From a virus, in IMG/VR virus record IMGVR_UViG_3300024346_000519, positions 1-23,644 of that record: a stretch of 23,644 nucleotides of DNA. One strand, written 5' to 3'. The position numbers were made by a program, and so were the translations under genes. Position 1 is the stretch's first letter, and each line of letters opens with the position of its first letter. The notes under the pieces were generated by a model. That model did not search any database. It was given only the letters and a program-made list of their open reading frames with translations, and was not told the DNA's origin. Below are positions 14,336 through 23,451 of the stretch, one piece after another.

Positions 14336-14343
14336 TATTTATT
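14336..14343 (-). promoter_or_regulatory. Possible late box between gp18 and gp19
   Basis: The minus strand reads AATAAATA, overlapping the gp18 stop, about 25 bases before the gp19 ATG. It has one mismatch to TATAAATA and is AT-rich, so it is only a candidate for separate gp19 expression. Confidence 0.35.
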
Positions 14344-16954
14344 AGAACTGGCCAGCGATTTCATTGAACTCGACACCAGATCTGACGGCGACGAAGTTTA
14401 GCTGAATGAAGTTGATCGACTTAGCAGGCTTAATGTAGATGTCTCCAACAAAGCGATTGCTGTCAATTACTTCAGCAGTGTTATTCGTCTCGTCACAAAC
14501 CACGCGGAAGTCAAAGATTCCACGACGACCTTGAACGTCGCGAAGATATGGTTCAACTAGATTTACAAACTGTGATCTTGTGAAATCGTCGTTGAATTCA
14601 AACAGCGTAGAGTTTGAAGCTGTTGCAATCGCCTTTTCAAGAACAATAAACAAGCGACGTACGTTAATACGGTCGAATGCACTTGCACGACCTAGGAGAG
14701 TCTTATCTCCGTAAAGTACTGTGCCTTGACCTGGGAATGTTACGATTGGATTGACATCGTTCTTATACAGAAGATCTCTTTCAGTTTTTCCAGGGCTGAA
14801 TGCCAACTTCACGAGGTTTTTAATTTGACCGCGAGTAAATCCAGCAGGAGAGAACCAAGGATCTTTCAGGCTATCACTGCGAGCAGTAATACCAGCAATA
14901 TCTCCGTTCAAAGGAATGTAGCGATATACGTCAGCATACTTGTCGTACTGATACTTGTAACCAGAATCGAGGAATGCATATGAAGTATTACGCAGAAGAT
15001 TTCTGAAATCTACGATGTTCTGAGCTTGTGCGTTTTCTGTTGCGATACCTACAACATCAGAGTATGCAGGAGATACGAACACTACGCAATCCTTACGAAC
15101 TTCTGCAATGTTATCGATCAGATAGTTAGCTAGCTGAACGTCGCTGGTTCCGATTGCTTTCCCTTGAAGAATCAAAGAAACATCGACTGTACTTGCATCT
15201 GCGAAGAGATCGTATGCAGCACCAACGGCTGCCATTGATACTGTACTTTCTGTCGCGCCATCTGTTCCTCGAACGAAAGACTTCGTATAAGTCGTCGTAT
15301 TGGTCGAGTTAGCAACGGTTGAGAGAGTATTCGAAGCAGCGCCTGAGCGATCGTTTGTAGCCCAAACCCAACGTGAGAAGTCGTTGATCGCTGTCTTATA
15401 GTAGTTAGTTGTACCATCTTCTTTCTTAGCATCTGTTGCACGCGAAAGGTTTTGGTAGATTTCAAGTACTTGACCAGGTGTTCCGCTGATTAGACCATCT
15501 TCGTCAACCACAACAACTGAAACTTCGTCTTTCGTAGAAAGTCCGGCGTTTGTCATCGCTTGAGATACGCCTGGAGCAGAATCTACAGTGTTGAAGTATT
15601 CCCATTGACGTGTCAAAGAGTTTGCGCTGAAGTTAGTCGATTTGTTCCAAGTTGAATCGAAAACGATGTTAAAGTAGATGTTTGTACCATCATCGGCTTG
15701 TGCGCCTTTTGAAGCGACCTTCATATTCTGCTTACCGATAGTAGTATTACCAACTTCTACGTAGTCGCCAACCGTTAGCTTGTCACTGACTGCTGTCACC
15801 GCAAGACGTGCTTGAGCGAGCGTAAGGCCAAGATCAGTCGCTGATTGTTTTGTGAAGAATACGACCGAGTTGGCTGCGCCATTCGAGATGGCAACGTTTG
15901 CTCCACCAGATGTTAACGAGAGAGTAAAGCCGGTTGTATTCGCTCCAGTAATGAAGTACGATGTACCTTCTGATAAACCTTGAATGCTATTCGCGGTCGA
16001 AGAAGAGCCCTTTGCATACCATACTGCATCGCCATTCGTAAAGAGTGTATTTGCGGTTGCAAGAGAGATAAAGTTAGCTGATACGCCATTGGATCCAACT
16101 GTTCGTGCTGTCACAGCAGATGCTACGCGATCTGCGAAATCGTCGTTAGACCATACGAAGACAACGTTAGCAGTATTGCTGCCGACTGAAATCGATACAT
16201 TCGCTGATGTAAGATCTGCAAGAGCATATGCGTTTGCAGTTGTTGAACCGTAAGAAGTATTGGTTTCGAAAGTGATAGTTTCAGCGTATTGTCTATCACT
16301 GTCGCACATTGAAACTTTCAGAGAGTTACCGAGTGCACCAGGATAACGAGCTACAAACTCTGTTCCTGTAAATGTTGCATTCGCTGCACCTTTGTTTTCG
16401 AATTCTTCGGAGTTTCTAACAACTACGTTTGATGCAACGACTGCAGCTGTATCACCAGCATAAGCAGAAAGAGTCGTAGTGTTTGCAAAGAATGAAAGAA
16501 CCGCAGAAGCGCTTGTAGTAGCTGCTCTCGAAATAGTAGTAGTGGTATTGGAAACCGCCGTAACGAAGGTATCATCTGGAATGCCATCGCCTTGTACGCG
16601 ATTACCAACTGTAAGGCCAAGAGCCGCGCCGTTCGATGTGGCAAGCGTAGTATTACTACTAAGAGTAACAGTCGCTGTATTAGAGAAACCTGTTGTATTG
16701 GCAGCACGCGAAACATATAGAGCATTGCCATAAGAAAGGAAGTTTGCTGCTGTATAGAACGTTTCGTAGTTGTCCGAGGTCGGTTTACCGAAGCGATTTG
16801 CGAGTGTATTTTCTGAATCTACAAGAACGAACTTTCCGACTGGTCCCCAACGAAATACTCCGCCAAAACCTCCGACAGTAGTCGCAAGTGCTGGAACAGT
16901 AGTTGTAAGATCAATTTCGGAAACATTGATTCCTGGGCTGACTTGAAACGCCAT
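14342..16954 (-). CDS. 18: gp18 contractile tail sheath protein (enlarged)
   Basis: Sheath subunits surround the tube and contract to drive it through the envelope. The 870-aa product is much longer than T4 gp18 (659). The N-terminus SPGINVSEIDLTTTVPALAT (6-25), the ARYPGALGNSLKVSM block (202-216) and the C-terminal RTYxP-like region ending EVIDSNRFVGDIYIKPAKSI are classic sheath features. Extra material is seen as a beta-rich insert at about 90-165 (VGNRVQGDGIPDDTFVTAVS pattern) and another at about 295-365 (TNGDAVWYA...GLSEGTSYFITGANTTGF). Both resemble small beta modules known from surface and tail proteins. The start is preceded by AGGGAG and by an exact late promoter box. Confidence 0.96.
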   Translation of the reverse strand: MAFQVSPGINVSEIDLTTTVPALATTVGGFGGVFRWGPVGKFVLVDSENTLANRFGKPTSDNYETFYTAANFLSYGNALYVSRAANTTGFSNTATVTLSSNTTLATSNGAALGLTVGNRVQGDGIPDDTFVTAVSNTTTTISRAATTSASAVLSFFANTTTLSAYAGDTAAVVASNVVVRNSEEFENKGAANATFTGTEFVARYPGALGNSLKVSMCDSDRQYAETITFETNTSYGSTTANAYALADLTSANVSISVGSNTANVVFVWSNDDFADRVASAVTARTVGSNGVSANFISLATANTLFTNGDAVWYAKGSSSTANSIQGLSEGTSYFITGANTTGFTLSLTSGGANVAISNGAANSVVFFTKQSATDLGLTLAQARLAVTAVSDKLTVGDYVEVGNTTIGKQNMKVASKGAQADDGTNIYFNIVFDSTWNKSTNFSANSLTRQWEYFNTVDSAPGVSQAMTNAGLSTKDEVSVVVVDEDGLISGTPGQVLEIYQNLSRATDAKKEDGTTNYYKTAINDFSRWVWATNDRSGAASNTLSTVANSTNTTTYTKSFVRGTDGATESTVSMAAVGAAYDLFADASTVDVSLILQGKAIGTSDVQLANYLIDNIAEVRKDCVVFVSPAYSDVVGIATENAQAQNIVDFRNLLRNTSYAFLDSGYKYQYDKYADVYRYIPLNGDIAGITARSDSLKDPWFSPAGFTRGQIKNLVKLAFSPGKTERDLLYKNDVNPIVTFPGQGTVLYGDKTLLGRASAFDRINVRRLFIVLEKAIATASNSTLFEFNDDFTRSQFVNLVEPYLRDVQGRRGIFDFRVVCDETNNTAEVIDSNRFVGDIYIKPAKSINFIQLNFVAVRSGVEFNEIAGQF

Positions 16955-16998: not shown

Positions 16999-17006
16999 TA
17001 TTTATA
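16999..17006 (-). promoter_or_regulatory. T4-type late promoter box for gp18
   Basis: Exact TATAAATA on the minus strand, 44 bases before the gp18 ATG. The TAA inside the box (17004-17002) is the stop codon of the Coq4-like gene, so promoter and upstream reading frame share bases. Confidence 0.88.
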
Positions 17007-17706
17007 ACTTCAAAAAATTAGGGTATTTGTTTATGAAAACACGAGGCAAACGTATGTTTAATCGTTCCCTAGCAGAATCTAGATTTTCAGATAGTAGTTT
17101 ATCATAATCTTCGGCTAATAGAAACTTAGCCTTTTTGCCATTTCGATAAGCTTCATACACCATTCGAAGCCGAGTAAAAGCTTCAGAAGGATGTCTTATT
17201 AAAAGCGTGAATAAGATACTTAAACTAATTACTAACCACGCAAGCGACCGGGTTTGTGCATAAGAAAACATTATCATACACATTTCTCCTTCTGCAGTTG
17301 TAGGATAATTAGTTAAAATATGCCATATATCATGAGTATCGCGGTATCTTCTTGCCATCCAACTGTAAGGATGTTTAACTTCAATCCATTGATCAGCGGC
17401 GTTTTTTCTACTCATTGCTACAATAGCTAATCGATGGTGCTGAAAACAATCAGCAGCTGCTTTACCAACAGATTTTTCAGGTCTATTCACAAGACCTGGC
17501 AAATATTCTGATATTTCTTCAGACTTATATGCCATCTCTCCGCCTGTTCGAGTTTCGAGCATCTTTTTATACGTATATTTTAAAGAAGGTCCACTGCCAT
17601 GGCGTACTACTTGTAAAATAAAAATTAAGGCTTTCCCAGGATTATTCAGTGCATACTTCATAGGTTTAATTAATTTTCTGAGATTAAGTCCGTATTCATC
17701 TTTCAT
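17002..17706 (-). CDS. Coq4-like ubiquinone biosynthesis protein (candidate auxiliary metabolic gene)
   Basis: The 234-aa product carries the Coq4 metal-binding signature HDxxH-x11-E intact: His125, Asp126, His129 and Glu141, within YRDTHDIWHILTNYPTTAEG and E. The preceding SWMARR, the following FSYAQTRSLAW with a hydrophobic segment (154-170), and the C-terminal VYEAYRNGKKAKFLLAEDY fit full-length bacterial and mitochondrial Coq4. In eukaryotes Coq4 is required for coenzyme Q synthesis, has been linked to oxidative C1 decarboxylation of the ring, and organises the Q-synthesis complex at the membrane. I chose the ATG at 17706 (AAGGAA 9 bases upstream, 1 base after the gp17 stop). A TTG at 17724 inside gp17 is less likely. 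Hand counts give about 37 % GC in six sampled lines, against about 43 % in five lines of gp17, consistent with acquisition. No promoter of its own is visible, so it is probably read through with the terminase. Confidence 0.88.
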   Translation of the reverse strand: MKDEYGLNLRKLIKPMKYALNNPGKALIFILQVVRHGSGPSLKYTYKKMLETRTGGEMAYKSEEISEYLPGLVNRPEKSVGKAAADCFQHHRLAIVAMSRKNAADQWIEVKHPYSWMARRYRDTHDIWHILTNYPTTAEGEMCMIMFSYAQTRSLAWLVISLSILFTLLIRHPSEAFTRLRMVYEAYRNGKKAKFLLAEDYDKLLSENLDSARERLNIRLPRVFINKYPNFLKL

Positions 17707-17707
17707 A

Positions 17708-19381
17708 TCAAAAGTTTCCTTCAAAAAACCCTCGCTTTTGTGCTACCCAAAAATCATCTCTTGGACCACCGTCAAAGAGTGGTTCGTTGACTTCTTCGTC
17801 ATGTATATCATCGCCTGTACTCATTAATCCGAATGGTAGCATTTGTTGCTCAAGCATTTTCTCGTTCTGCTCGTAGATTTGCATACGAATATCGATATTT
17901 GTAATTTCTTTCAGATATGGTTGTGTAGTTAACCAGGCAAAGAGAACACAACACATGGCCATATCATCGTTACCATCTTCTGCTTCGTAAGACTGATTCC
18001 CTTTCAAGGTGTTCTTGAGTGAGAAACGACTTAACTCATAGATGGTATCATAATCATAGATCAAGAACTTGTCGGCCTCGACGAGAGTCTTGAGTGTGGC
18101 ACAACCAATTCTCTTGACTTGTTTTGATGTTTTGACTCCATAATGTGTAGTGGTAGCAAAACCACCTGATAAACTTTGTCCTGTTCTACCATTATTGGCA
18201 GTCACAAGAACTCCGTCATATTCAAGATCATAGTGTAAGATGTCAGCCACTTGCTGACCAATATCATTTGTTTCGACGAGAACAAGAGCATCATTGTATT
18301 TGACTGCAGCTCCATAGATAATGTTTGGATATATCAATGGAGATATTAGATTATTTCGAAATGCGGCCACTTGACGATATGGCATCGTCGATACGTTGAC
18401 GACAATAAAAGCAGAATAGTCGGCTCCGGCTCCTCGAGCAGTATCAACCACAATCGCATAAATGGTATCTGGTTCTGGTTCTTCGTAGATCTTCAATCCA
18501 CCATCAGCCTGAGCAATTGGATTTTTATAAACCATATTACGAAGTTTGGTAGGATGAATCAGTGTATTCGAAGATCCAAGGAATTCGCACTCATATTCTT
18601 GTCTAAACTGATCTTCAGACGTATTGCTGATCGTCTGTTCTTTCCATGCATCATCGCGGCCTGGAATTTGTGACCAGTGAACGTCAACACGAGCATAAGC
18701 ATTTCTACCTTCTTCAGACTCTGTCCAGATACGATAGAACATGTTCATGCCATTCGGTGTCGAAGTAATCAGAACCTTCGAACTTTGACCAGATGAAATG
18801 GTAGGATAAACCGAAGCGAAGAACTCATCTTGAATGTTGGTCGGAACGAAGGCAAACTCGTCAAGGTAAACCATGTTCTGAGAAGTACCACGAATCGCAG
18901 AAGATGAGGTAGCCGAGGCAAGGATTTCAGATCCATTCTCGAGCTTAATGTTACCTTTATTCCATTCAGTCACGCCCATCTGAAGCCACTTCGGAAGATG
19001 CTCGAACATCAACTGAATACGTCCAAGGATTTCTCGAGCTTGTCTGTCTTTGTTGGCCAGAATAGCAATCGAGTATTCTTCGTTGAATACGATCTTCCAA
19101 AGTAAGTAAGCGGCAACAGTCGTCGTCTTACCGACCTGACGAGGCATCTTACAGATAACAAATCGATTCTCTTCGAAGGCGAGGATCATTTCTTTCTGAA
19201 ATTCCCAGAGCGGGAACATGATCAAACCTTTGTCAATGTTGACAATCTTACAGTAAGTTAAGATAAAGTAGATCGGATCCTCAGAGCACTTGATATACTC
19301 GGCAACCTGCTCTGGAGTATACTCGACTTTTGTGTCGGCTCTTTTTAATCGAGGATTACCTAAATAATTTTCACTCGCCAT
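17708..19381 (-). CDS. 17: gp17 terminase large subunit
   Basis: This ATPase-nuclease motor cuts concatemers and pumps DNA through the portal. In 557 aa (T4: 610) it has Walker A MPRQVGKTT (79-87), Walker B VYLDE (171-175), the coupling motif ITSTPNG (205-211), and an RNase H-like nuclease domain with acidic residues in VVDTARGAGADYSAF (Asp313; Asp321), VLVETND (Glu370) and NDDMAM (Asp472 or Asp473). The start lies inside the end of gene 16 (11-base overlap). All catalytic residues are present. It is followed after one base by the Coq4-like gene rather than directly by gp18. Confidence 0.98.
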   Translation of the reverse strand: MASENYLGNPRLKRADTKVEYTPEQVAEYIKCSEDPIYFILTYCKIVNIDKGLIMFPLWEFQKEMILAFEENRFVICKMPRQVGKTTTVAAYLLWKIVFNEEYSIAILANKDRQAREILGRIQLMFEHLPKWLQMGVTEWNKGNIKLENGSEILASATSSSAIRGTSQNMVYLDEFAFVPTNIQDEFFASVYPTISSGQSSKVLITSTPNGMNMFYRIWTESEEGRNAYARVDVHWSQIPGRDDAWKEQTISNTSEDQFRQEYECEFLGSSNTLIHPTKLRNMVYKNPIAQADGGLKIYEEPEPDTIYAIVVDTARGAGADYSAFIVVNVSTMPYRQVAAFRNNLISPLIYPNIIYGAAVKYNDALVLVETNDIGQQVADILHYDLEYDGVLVTANNGRTGQSLSGGFATTTHYGVKTSKQVKRIGCATLKTLVEADKFLIYDYDTIYELSRFSLKNTLKGNQSYEAEDGNDDMAMCCVLFAWLTTQPYLKEITNIDIRMQIYEQNEKMLEQQMLPFGLMSTGDDIHDEEVNEPLFDGGPRDDFWVAQKRGFFEGNF

Positions 19382-19760
19382 CTTTATGCTGCTTTAGATA
19401 TTTTTGTAATTCTGCAGTCGACCCGACGAACAAATTATTTGTGACTTGTTGAGCGGTAGCAGTTGGATCATCTTCCATCAGTTTTTTCTTTTTGACTTGT
19501 AAATCCAGAAGATCTTTGCTCGCTCCAACCATGGTGTTCATCATTCCAGCAAGTACTTCATATGCTCTTGGATGTTGACTTTGTTTCGCTACATCCATCA
19601 GATCAAAGAGAGCTTCTTGCCCTTTATTAATGACTTCCATCATATTCTCGCGAGCAAATTCAAAGTCAGCCGAGACTTGTGTGCTCATCTTCTTTTCGAT
19701 CACAGCCGGAAGAGTTTCGCCTGCGGCGATGTTTAAAAATTTATCAAGTTCATTGCTCAT
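19371..19760 (-). CDS. 16: gp16 terminase small subunit
   Basis: This subunit recognises viral DNA for packaging and regulates gp17 ATPase and nuclease activity. The 129-aa product is helical, with a central pair of long helices (about 27-95: FEFARENMMEVINKGQEALF, then MMNTMVGASKDLLDLQVKKK) as in T4-type small terminases, and a flexible C-terminus (TAQQVTNNLFVGSTAELQKY). It is shorter than T4 gp16 (164 aa) but of the size usual for marine relatives. TAATG coupling to gene 15 and the overlap with gene 17 fix both ends. Confidence 0.92.
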   Translation of the reverse strand: MSNELDKFLNIAAGETLPAVIEKKMSTQVSADFEFARENMMEVINKGQEALFDLMDVAKQSQHPRAYEVLAGMMNTMVGASKDLLDLQVKKKKLMEDDPTATAQQVTNNLFVGSTAELQKYLKQHKDGE

Positions 19761-20590
19761 TAGATATTCTCAGTAATTGTATTAATAATGCTATAGTTAT
19801 CTGTACTTATAATATCTTCGTATGAAATACTTAAAGCAGTGTTGGTAGTAGGTTGTCCATTTGCTGTCAGTCCAGGACGTGAAGTCACTACTATCGTATT
19901 CGCCGTGCTATTAGTATTTCCGGTCGCGACATCTTCTGGAAATCTAAATACAGTTTCAGCATGTTTAATTAGTTTTGATTTCTTCGATGGTCCGTACAAC
20001 CAACCTTTCAATGTAAAGTTGAGTGTCCATATTAAAGCTCTTCTTTGTTCGAAGCTGCCTTCATATTGATCTTGAGAAGAGATGCTATTTAAAATAATAG
20101 GAATATCGCGAGCACTATCGACTTCTGGTACAACATTCACGCTCACAGTAAAAGCAGGTGTAAAGTAAGGTACGATCTGTTCTACTATTCTTGTGCCATC
20201 TTCGGCGTTCTTCACTAAGATATTCATCTCAAACTGCATATCATACGGAACAGGTTGATATTGATATTTGACTTCATCGTCTGTGCCTGCAGTGGCAGAT
20301 TGTTTCGTCAGTTTATTCAAAGTATTTAACTTACGAGTAGGATCATATTCTAAAGTCGTCATTTCAAAAGAAATGCGAGGAAGAATAATACCAACTTGAT
20401 TATCGAGTCTCGGGCTTTGTTCAAGTCTCGAAAGTATTTTGTCTTTTGGACCGTACGTTAAAGGAACTTTCAGAGTCTGAAGTACTTCTCCGGTCGAGCT
20501 GAGTCGATTGATATAGATATCGTTGAAGACAGTTCCGAATACAATGATGTATTTTCTTAGACTGTCATGGTTCCATGTTCTTCCAAACAT
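19760..20590 (-). CDS. 15: gp15 tail terminator / sheath-stabilising protein
   Basis: In T4 gp15 forms a hexameric ring capping the finished tail and joining it to the head. The 276-aa product matches T4 (272) and begins MFGRTWNHDSLRKYIIVFGT, followed by FNDIYINRL, LKVPLTYGPKDKILSRLEQ and LPRISFEMTTLEYDPTRKLN, the recognised gp15 N-terminal pattern. TAATG couples it to gene 14. The Thr/Asn-rich C-terminus is probably flexible. No anomaly is seen. Confidence 0.95.
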   Translation of the reverse strand: MFGRTWNHDSLRKYIIVFGTVFNDIYINRLSSTGEVLQTLKVPLTYGPKDKILSRLEQSPRLDNQVGIILPRISFEMTTLEYDPTRKLNTLNKLTKQSATAGTDDEVKYQYQPVPYDMQFEMNILVKNAEDGTRIVEQIVPYFTPAFTVSVNVVPEVDSARDIPIILNSISSQDQYEGSFEQRRALIWTLNFTLKGWLYGPSKKSKLIKHAETVFRFPEDVATGNTNSTANTIVVTSRPGLTANGQPTTNTALSISYEDIISTDNYSIINTITENI

Positions 20591-21318
20591 TATACTTGTC
20601 CCTCACTAAACGGATCTATCTGCGTCCAGTCAAGGATAGTGTCCCCGTCTGTTTCAAACTCGACATTATCTTCGAATGCATCTCCGGCTTGTGTACCAAA
20701 ATCATAGCTGCCTTGTATGATTGGATTTCCTTCTTGAGTAACCAGAAGTAAATTGTCATTTGTCAAGATTCCAAAGGCATCGAGGCTGAGACTACTTAAT
20801 TTCTCAATACTGTCAATGGCTTCAATGCCAGTATTTAACTTCTCACTTCCATACTCAAACATCTCGCAGACGAGATCATACATCTGAATAGCGCCCATCT
20901 GATAAAAGACAGGAGTTTTATTGACATACTTGACATACATCAAACGATCAGCCATGGCAAGATAAATCAAATCACCTTCTTGTGGACGATCGATCATTTC
21001 TACTGAACCAATCTCGTTCATGAAGTTACGAACAGAGACAGTAAATGTAACTTGATCTCGAATCTCAAGACCAAACTTCGATAAGAATTGTCCGTCACCT
21101 TCATAGCTTTCATAGCTACGAATATACATGTCAATTAAATAATTACTGTTGTACTGTGATAATGAATCTTCTTCATAAACTTCGTCTTTTTCTATTAAAG
21201 TACGAGGACAATAGAATACATCATGACCATATATTTGAATAGACTCAAGAACCAGATCTTCAATTAAGATCTGCTCTTGACTATTCGTAAAGTTGTTGAA
21301 ATAGAAATTGGTCGACAT
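20590..21318 (-). CDS. 14: gp14 neck protein
   Basis: In T4 gp14 sits with gp13 in the neck connecting portal to tail. The 242-aa product (T4: 256) starts MSTNFYFNNFTNSQEQILIE and contains the family block LVLESIQIYGHDVFYCPRTL (22-41), an acidic middle, and AMADRLMYVKYVNKTPVFYQ. Its stop overlaps the gp15 start in TAATG. It follows gp13 by 3 bases. Identification is by these blocks and by the 13-14-15 order. Confidence 0.95.
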   Translation of the reverse strand: MSTNFYFNNFTNSQEQILIEDLVLESIQIYGHDVFYCPRTLIEKDEVYEEDSLSQYNSNYLIDMYIRSYESYEGDGQFLSKFGLEIRDQVTFTVSVRNFMNEIGSVEMIDRPQEGDLIYLAMADRLMYVKYVNKTPVFYQMGAIQMYDLVCEMFEYGSEKLNTGIEAIDSIEKLSSLSLDAFGILTNDNLLLVTQEGNPIIQGSYDFGTQAGDAFEDNVEFETDGDTILDWTQIDPFSEGQV

Positions 21319-21321
21319 GTA

Positions 21322-22065
21322 TTATCCAATCATATCGAGAACCGGCAGAGAATAAGAAGAAATCATCTCATCTTCGAGCTTTCTTCTTTCGGCCACAGCA
21401 TCATCATAAATTTTCTCTCCGTTGAACTGTACTCCACCAGGTAAAGTCATACCACTAAACTTTGTAAGATTCGAACCCCATTGTTCTTTAATGAGAGTCG
21501 TAGCATAGTTCTGAAGCCACCGATCGTTATAAGCATCTGTAAAAGTTTCTGGATCGACGACCTCATAAGCTTCTACAAGTAAGAATGAGCCAACAGCAAC
21601 CGTGTTCCAGTCCATGTCGACATGTAATCGATCTTTATGACGAGAATAGCGAATCGGTTGTTTACCGACGAGAAGCTCTGTCATGAGTGCAAGATGTTCC
21701 ATCACCATATAATATGGAACAAGAGATACGTTTGTGAGAGTATAAATATCATTCAGTGCGATTTGATATCGAATATTGAAAAGATCGTCAGAGCTTATCG
21801 AAGGATCTCCCATCGAGAAGATGCTGACAGCGCCGATGATATTTTCTGGAAGAGTAATATACTTGTTTGTGACATCAGTATCAGTGATCGCATGCTTATA
21901 GTATATTTTTTCTGAACCATCAAAGTGATAGTCATACCAGTAACGTAAAGCTTCGTCGATACGATCGTCGACTTGATCATCATCGACGTTAATCTCAATG
22001 ACTGGTTTGCCGAGCTTTCGAAGGCAATACTCTTTAAATGTCGCTTTTGTAGTAGGAGTTGCCAT
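21322..22065 (-). CDS. 13: gp13 neck protein
   Basis: This is a head-completion and neck protein that closes the filled portal. The 247-aa product (T4: 309) contains FKEYCLRKLGKPVIEINVDD (10-29), VDDRIDEALRYWYDYHFDG (32-50) and GSEKIYYKHAITDTDVTNKY, all typical of gp13. It is the first minus-strand gene of the late block, with GAGG before the ATG and two late boxes in the 85-base divergent spacer. Confidence 0.95.
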   Translation of the reverse strand: MATPTTKATFKEYCLRKLGKPVIEINVDDDQVDDRIDEALRYWYDYHFDGSEKIYYKHAITDTDVTNKYITLPENIIGAVSIFSMGDPSISSDDLFNIRYQIALNDIYTLTNVSLVPYYMVMEHLALMTELLVGKQPIRYSRHKDRLHVDMDWNTVAVGSFLLVEAYEVVDPETFTDAYNDRWLQNYATTLIKEQWGSNLTKFSGMTLPGGVQFNGEKIYDDAVAERRKLEDEMISSYSLPVLDMIG

Positions 22066-22098: not shown

Positions 22099-22106
22099 TA
22101 TTTATA
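22099..22106 (-). promoter_or_regulatory. T4-type late promoter box for the neck/terminase operon
   Basis: Exact TATAAATA on the minus strand, 34 bases before the gp13 ATG, in the divergent spacer. It would start the transcript covering genes 13, 14, 15, 16, 17 and the Coq4-like gene, since no other exact box is seen before 16999. Confidence 0.88.
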
Positions 22107-22150: not shown

Positions 22151-22702
22151 ATGAATTTAGACTTGATGATTATTGATAACTTCTATATCAATCCCGACGC
22201 CGTGAGAGCTTTTGCTTTGACTCAAAACTTTGGCGTCATAGGTAACTATCCAGGAAAACGAACACCTTCATTTTTGACACAAGACGTCAAAGATTGCATT
22301 CAGCATTGGATGAATCCAGTCGGAAAGATTTCCAACTGGCACGAAGATTCAGGTTATACTGGCGCCTTTCAATACGCTACCGCTTCAGATCGAACGTGGA
22401 TTCATTGCGATCATACGAGCATGTGGGCTGGTGTATGCTACTTGTCACCAGATGCTCCATATACCGCTGGCACTGCCATGTATCGGCACAAAGAAACGGG
22501 CGAATATCGAGCTCCAACGAACGAGCATGAGGCATACGACTATACCAAGTGGGATCGAATCGATGTTGTAGGCAACAAATACAATCGATTAATTCTCTAC
22601 AGCGGAGATCTCTTTCATGCTAGCTTAGATTATTTCGGTAAAGATTTGTATGATGGCCGTCTGTTTCAGACATTCTTCTTTGACACGGAGCATGCACAAT
22701 GA
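22151..22702 (+). CDS. 2OG-Fe(II) oxygenase-like protein
   Basis: The 183-aa product shows the iron-binding facial triad of the dioxygenase superfamily: His85-x-Asp87 in WIHCDHTSMWAGVCYLSP and His156 in SGDLFHAS, with Arg170 in DGRLFQTFFF as the probable 2-oxoglutarate anchor. The N-terminal IIDNFYINPDAVRAFAL is shared by related phage proteins of this type. Such enzymes hydroxylate proteins, nucleic acids or small molecules, and the substrate here is unknown. AGGA lies 13 bases before the ATG. The stop overlaps the glycosyltransferase start as ATGA, so the two are co-translated. Genes of this family are frequent in marine T4-like phages. Confidence 0.85.
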   Translation: MNLDLMIIDNFYINPDAVRAFALTQNFGVIGNYPGKRTPSFLTQDVKDCIQHWMNPVGKISNWHEDSGYTGAFQYATASDRTWIHCDHTSMWAGVCYLSPDAPYTAGTAMYRHKETGEYRAPTNEHEAYDYTKWDRIDVVGNKYNRLILYSGDLFHASLDYFGKDLYDGRLFQTFFFDTEHAQ

Positions 22703-23451
22703 AAGTTTGTAAGGTAATATGGTCGACCAATCGACTCGAGTATTTGATTCCTACACTCAAATCTCAGCGAGATATGTTAAACTTTGAAGGTTGCGAAGTC
22801 GAAGGCATCTTTTTCGACGATATGCCAAAAGGGCGGCATGACGGTACGATGTTCGAGCTAGCTAAGAATTTTGGCTTTACTGAAATCTTCTTACATCAAC
22901 AGAATATGGGTTTGCCATACGTATGGAATCGAACCTTCGAACTCCTGAGAGAACGAGATTATGATTACGTGTATCTATCTGAAGATGATGTGACGTTCAA
23001 CTGTCCGATTCGAATGCTCGACATGACTCAGATCTTACATGACTATCGTAACGTTTCTCAGGTATGCTTGACACGACAGAAATGGTATGACTTTGAAGAG
23101 GAAACACAAGCTTATGAAACAGACATTACACTTGGAAAATACCGTGGCGAGCTTTCTGAAGCATATTTTTGGAGTTTGGCAAGTGTTTTTCCGCGTGCCA
23201 TAGTAGATCTTCCTCATGCCGAATCAGTAGGCGAGAAGAACTTGAGCGAGTATGTTGTAGCAAAATCATTGCAGCAACTTGGTATGCAGACATGTAAGCT
23301 GAAGACCGAAGAAGGCCATAACATTGTAAATCATATCGGCGAATATAGCATCGGTAAACGAGCAGAACCAGGAGATCCTCGCTACGAAGATTTTGCATCA
23401 TATGATCCTGAAACAAAATACAGTTCAAAGCATGGAACGAAGTGGAGTTAA
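22699..23451 (+). CDS. GT-A-type glycosyltransferase family protein
   Basis: The 250-aa product starts with a Rossmann-like strand and turn (KVCKVIWSTNRLEYLIPTLK, 2-21), and continues to DYDYVYLSEDDVTF (87-100), whose E95-D96-D97 is in the place of the DxD metal- and nucleotide-sugar-binding motif of GT-A enzymes. The LHQQNMGLPYVWNRTFEL stretch (65-82) matches the nucleotide-sugar pocket layout of GT2-like proteins. There are no membrane segments, so it is cytosolic. The acceptor could be phage DNA, a virion protein or host glycan. Coupling with a dioxygenase suggests successive hydroxylation and glycosylation, but this is inference. Confidence 0.83.
   Translation: MKVCKVIWSTNRLEYLIPTLKSQRDMLNFEGCEVEGIFFDDMPKGRHDGTMFELAKNFGFTEIFLHQQNMGLPYVWNRTFELLRERDYDYVYLSEDDVTFNCPIRMLDMTQILHDYRNVSQVCLTRQKWYDFEEETQAYETDITLGKYRGELSEAYFWSLASVFPRAIVDLPHAESVGEKNLSEYVVAKSLQQLGMQTCKLKTEEGHNIVNHIGEYSIGKRAEPGDPRYEDFASYDPETKYSSKHGTKWS

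Follow-up and report, generated by a model that had tools for sequence, protein, structure and literature searches.

A Coq4-family gene between the terminase and tail sheath genes in a lineage of T4-like phages

Results

The coq4 locus

The window, i.e. the whole stretch of DNA analysed here, is a 23.6-kb virus record (23,644 nt) whose minus strand carries T4 core genes arranged as in T4: gp13-14-15-16-17, coq4, 18-19-20 and 21-22-23, several of the gp numbers being assigned by position. The coq4-like gene (Table 1), whose minus-strand orientation the initial annotation had left out, has phage genes on either side, gp17 and gp18, as the initial annotation of this T4-like phage had described. 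The place was also called striking, which is supported by the closest isolate, Synechococcus phage S-IOM18, where gp17 and gp18 are only 62 bp apart with no gene inside.

The gap from the gp17 TGA to the coq4 ATG is 1 nt. Since coq4 starts one base past the gp17 stop and an AAGGAA motif lies nine bases upstream, it is probably co-translated with gp17. The sequence AAGGAAACTTTTGAT upstream of coq4 is conserved in most relatives. Six TATAAATA sites occur in the window against 0.87 expected, and five of the six lie directly upstream of genes. Judging from the gene order, the site upstream of gp13 is probably the start of a gp13-14-15-16-17-coq4 transcript. Late expression of coq4, as proposed initially, is probable in view of its place in the gp17 operon and the late promoters. 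Positions 22151-23451 contain two genes oriented against the core genes, on the plus strand: one for a DUF6445 protein (PHROG minor coat protein) and, after it, a glycosyltransferase-like gene; the position of this pair is conserved across the window's group.

Table 1 Features of the coq4 locus and of related viral contigs
Feature	Position	Strand	Remarks
coq4-like gene	17002..17706	minus	ATG 17706-17704, TAA 17004-17002; 234 aa, intact ORF
Shine-Dalgarno-like AAGGAA	17716..17721	minus	9 nt upstream of coq4 ATG, within final gp17 codons
gp17, terminase large subunit	17708..19381	minus	TGA 17710-17708
TATAAATA, T4-type late promoter for gp18	16999..17006	minus	overlaps coq4 stop codon
gp18, tail sheath	14342..16954	minus	870 aa
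TATAAATA, late promoter	22099..22106	minus	upstream of gp13
gp16, gp15, gp14, gp13	19371..22065	minus	T4 core order upstream of coq4; gp13, gp14 named by position
Permuted tmRNAs	L114:16325-16739; L331:5957-6392		128-kb sister contig; just after Coq4; tags ANDNDSFADIRLAA, ANDNDVAFALAA
GT2 - Coq4 - 207-aa ORF cassette	L330:7262-9258; L402:1998-4198; L327:7265-10851		large phages incl. 360-kb contig
Beta-ketoacyl synthase, fatty-acid desaturase	L112:18656-19762, L117:9933-10655		128-kb contig

Family, motif and fold

The product had been proposed to be a Coq4 homologue. Its sole Pfam match is PF05019 (Coq4), over residues 30-220 (E = 7.1e-17; 61.9 bits, gathering threshold 22.9), and a PDB sequence search gave only two significant matches, both to Coq4 homologues (3.6e-7 and 9.3e-7). 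PHROGs and NCBIfam contained no family match. The exact metal motif noted before was confirmed in the ORF as HDIWH-(x)11-E (H125, D126, H129 and E141). The HDxxH-(x)10-13-E motif is retained in 40 of 40 full-length group-A copies, in 18 other viral copies and in 169 cellular copies, and all four ligands are among the 19 alignment columns that are invariant over 56 phage and bacterial sequences. The phage ligands line up by sequence with those of Nostoc Alr8543, which bind Mg; yeast Coq4 requires the metal motif (PMC9774615).

An AlphaFold2 model from a 56-row alignment (pLDDT 85.8, pTM 0.85) has the all-helical Coq4 fold that was expected from the initial annotation. This model supersedes a weak one from 21 rows (71.6). 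In structure comparison, it gave Z scores of 20.0 (202 residues, 6e12) and 18.6 (3msq), the next best and unrelated structure reaching 3.2, and Foldseek assigned a probability of 1.00 to the solved Coq4 proteins. A search of BFVD structures with the first, weaker model gave no significant match. The window gene encodes an intact protein of the Coq4 family and fold with the full metal-ligand motif.

Distribution, selection and loss

The initial annotation understated the finding, which is a whole phage lineage of Coq4 and not a one-off. The search of other T4-like phages that it suggested gave about 45 IMG/VR contigs with coq4 between gp17 and gp18 (Coq4 identity 50-100%), where the counts come from pattern scans of metagenomic data and are lower bounds, not numbers of independent isolates. 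The finding exceeds chance, since both the motif and the gp17/gp18 place are kept in 40 of 40 full-length viral relatives checked and dN/dS is 0.07-0.20. These values (where dS was computable) indicate purifying selection and, together with the full-length frame, agree with the earlier reading of the gene as functional rather than decayed. For coq4, dS mostly lies close to or moderately higher than the values of the neighbouring genes, and its dN is higher, so that recombination would not be needed to account for its faster divergence. In the most divergent group-A Coq4 (L087:3060-3110), a small frame change before the late promoter ends the protein a few residues early.

That coq4 is not a standard phage gene was borne out by tblastn against 50,697 isolate phages, which gave no Coq4 match even at E 10; in the open-access papers found, Coq4 was unreported as a phage gene. 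Seventeen contigs whose gp17 shares 95-99% identity with that of the window lack coq4 or have it reduced to a remnant. Most of them retain traces of the coq4 3′-end between gp17 and the late promoter, some also the start-codon region, which shows that their ancestors had coq4 and that it was lost repeatedly. For the L045, L049, L058 and L085 types, the scars score higher against the coq4 3′ end than any shuffled sequence, and those of L060/L063 and L084 are individually borderline; codons 193-234 survive the deletion in L085. The sister group (gp17 82-87%) has 55 bp at the site with no coq4 trace. By its context, coq4 is a putative phage auxiliary metabolic gene: it is phage-flanked, cell-derived, non-core and patchy, yet under selection.

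Origin and host

In a maximum-likelihood tree of bacteria and phages only, the phage copies form one clade (support 100/100), which is nested in a Caulobacterales/Sphingomonadales/Cupriavidus Coq4 clade, the exact sister being unsure. This phylogeny covers the alphaproteobacterial part of the one suggested initially and places the phage clade within alphaproteobacterial Coq4. A quicker tree including the 360-kb copy gave the same placement. A long branch (1.2-1.9 changes per site) leads to the phage clade, and the substrate may therefore differ now. A scan of 84,980 species genomes with the phage alignment detected no close bacterial copies, and cellular Coq4 was then reached via plasmid matches. 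Even within Caulobacterales, the phage-type Coq4 has a patchy distribution, scoring high in about 36 of 150 genomes.

The nested clade and the alphaproteobacterial-type permuted tmRNA in a 128-kb contig of the window's group make the alphaproteobacterial host clue of the initial annotation probable. The tmRNA comparison for a finer host assignment gave short conserved matches only, spread across Alphaproteobacteria. The host probably belongs to Alphaproteobacteria, an assignment made from sequence at class level with the order not settled. The late-promoter-like GTATAAATA precedes this tmRNA (L114). The same 128-kb contig encodes a 687-aa protein with a CHASE2 sensor and adenylate/guanylate cyclase domains (L112:1353-3413), which is unusual in a phage. 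A cyanophage host (the terminase has 57% identity to Synechococcus phages) was not supported, no psbA being found in 13 contigs.

A second setting of viral Coq4

About 20 further viral contigs (including those of 105, 150 and 360 kb) carry Coq4 of the same phage clade elsewhere (identity 37-50%). In 19 of 20, Coq4 overlaps or comes after a family-2 glycosyltransferase (GT2), and a conserved ORF of 207-210 aa without a known family follows next in nearly all of them. This cassette is often accompanied by radical-SAM/B12 and PP-loop genes. The exception is L331, where Coq4 is preceded by a sulfotransferase-like gene and followed by a tmRNA. A T4-like terminase (52%) is encoded by the 150-kb contig. 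One of the 21 tRNA genes of L330 (1864-1938) has a CTA anticodon (called tRNA-Pyl) and might act as an amber suppressor; tRNA genes number 25 in L325 and 26 in L326. Neither GT2 nor the 207-aa ORF was found in the large contigs of the window's group, which implies that Coq4 works there without them.

Discussion

Because human COQ4 has been reported to be a decarboxylase, a role in quinone synthesis is the likeliest single reading of the phage protein. Human COQ4 was described as a Zn-dependent C1 decarboxylase in vitro, where metal-site mutants were tested and EDTA abolished the activity (PMC7615680), and, from work in cells, as an oxidative decarboxylase (PMC11495197). Phage Coq4 would be translated late together with gp17, would bind a divalent metal (Zn or Mg) and, at the host inner membrane, would modify a prenylated quinone precursor at its head group. 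The reaction would most likely be the one reported for human COQ4, removal of the C1 carboxyl from the ubiquinone ring (with hydroxylation in one report). This step could bypass UbiX/UbiD/UbiH and so sustain the quinone supply late in infection. A ubiquinone role, as the initial annotation proposed, is plausible, although we would stop a little short of calling it probable. The best explanation also includes a single acquisition of coq4 by phages from an alphaproteobacterium and its subsequent retention by selection; as a whole, it has in our judgement slightly less than an even chance of being right.

Several observations weigh against this reading, among them the patchiness of Coq4 in Caulobacterales and the long phage branch described above. 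UbiA, the only pathway gene looked for, was not found in 13 phage contigs. As to whether Coq4 might stand in for UbiD/UbiX, UbiD was found in 14 of the 37 draft genomes with Coq4 and in 4 of the 18 without it, and in all four of the nearest cellular relatives in this set (G015, G022, G081 and G296). The control genome of Caulobacter vibrioides has UbiD and no Coq4, and Coq4 is therefore dispensable for ubiquinone there. Coq4-family genes on sphingomonad plasmids lie in catabolic-looking operons with P450, nitronate monooxygenase and acyl-CoA dehydrogenase genes, and in Cupriavidus the neighbours of Coq4, read by eye, are flavin-monooxygenase-like and hydrolase-like genes. The family also occurs in cyanobacteria, organisms unrelated to ubiquinone. 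The Coq4 family is thus broader in scope than the ubiquinone pathway, and the cassette of other phages may indicate a different activity: Coq4 is conserved there together with a glycosyltransferase and an ORF of no known family, not with quinone genes.

As the main alternative, it is possible, and deserves serious weight, that the Coq4-fold enzyme acts on another lipid, altering a prenyl-lipid, a lipid-linked sugar or a membrane lipid with GT2 and partners, e.g. in a cell-surface or membrane change during infection. The GT2-Coq4-207-aa ORF cassette of about 20 viral contigs and its frequent radical-SAM/B12 and PP-loop companions speak for such an activity, as do the UDP-sugar dehydrogenase, methyltransferase and AMP-ligase genes of one second-setting contig, and the non-quinone operons of cellular family members. 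Solved Coq4 proteins also contain a bound lipid: the obsolete model has geranylgeranyl monophosphate, and its replacement has oleic acid (PMC9774615). The 128-kb sister contig has ketoacyl synthase, fatty-acid desaturase and sulfotransferase-like genes, the first two suggesting that lipids may be changed in infection. The lack of GT2 and the 207-aa ORF in the window-group contigs argues against this activity, and that group would have to use host partners. The broader proposal that the phage Coq4 lineage as such lies outside ubiquinone synthesis, that several kinds of large phage use the GT2/Coq4/207-aa ORF/radical SAM-B12 cassette to produce or modify a prenyl-lipid or lipid-linked compound, and that the gp17-gp18 copy is a stand-alone offshoot, is taken jointly rather unlikely.

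A non-catalytic protein, serving as a prenyl-lipid-binding scaffold which organises or disturbs the host quinone-making complex, would fit the organising role proposed for yeast Coq4, where an E-to-K mutant of the motif loses the complex (PMC11495197; PMC9774615), but the invariance of all metal ligands in the phage copies suggests metal chemistry and makes such a binder quite improbable. The several kinds of natural deletion show that coq4 can be lost, as would be expected of a passenger without function in infection. However, the dN/dS values, the dozens of contigs with an intact ORF at the identical place, and the single phage clade, for which 84,980 species genomes yielded no close bacterial copy, strongly disfavour a passenger gene, contamination or an assembly artefact, and we consider these to be very remote prospects.

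If the COQ4-like activity is true, one phage enzyme feeds the host respiratory quinone pool in late infection, and the papers found describe no viral gene for such a step. If Coq4 acts elsewhere, the GT2-Coq4-ORF207 cassette would point to a novel lipid modification in several large phage groups. The recent natural deletions supply matched phages that either carry or lack coq4. The role of Coq4 outside eukaryotes is unsettled, and the phage protein is compact enough to serve as a test case for the bacterial family members.

Nostoc Alr8543 (6e12) and 3msq share the fold, the HDxxH-(x)11-E motif and the length with the phage protein, but at about 20% identity, and only the latter protein is phage-borne. 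Human and yeast COQ4 share the family and the exact metal motif; they are coenzyme Q C1 (oxidative) decarboxylases, an activity that the phage protein may share, and UbiA was not found in 13 phage contigs. The nearest cellular relatives, with 38-42% identity and in the same clade, are the Coq4 proteins of Caulobacterales and Sphingomonadales (L210, L275 and L189), from which phage Coq4 differs as a separate long-branch clade; where the bacterial copies were inspected, they were solitary chromosomal genes. The reported viral auxiliary quinone genes ubiG and ubiE (PMC9301287; PMC8066274) are phage-borne genes assigned to quinone synthesis, as coq4 would be, but they encode methyltransferases of other steps.
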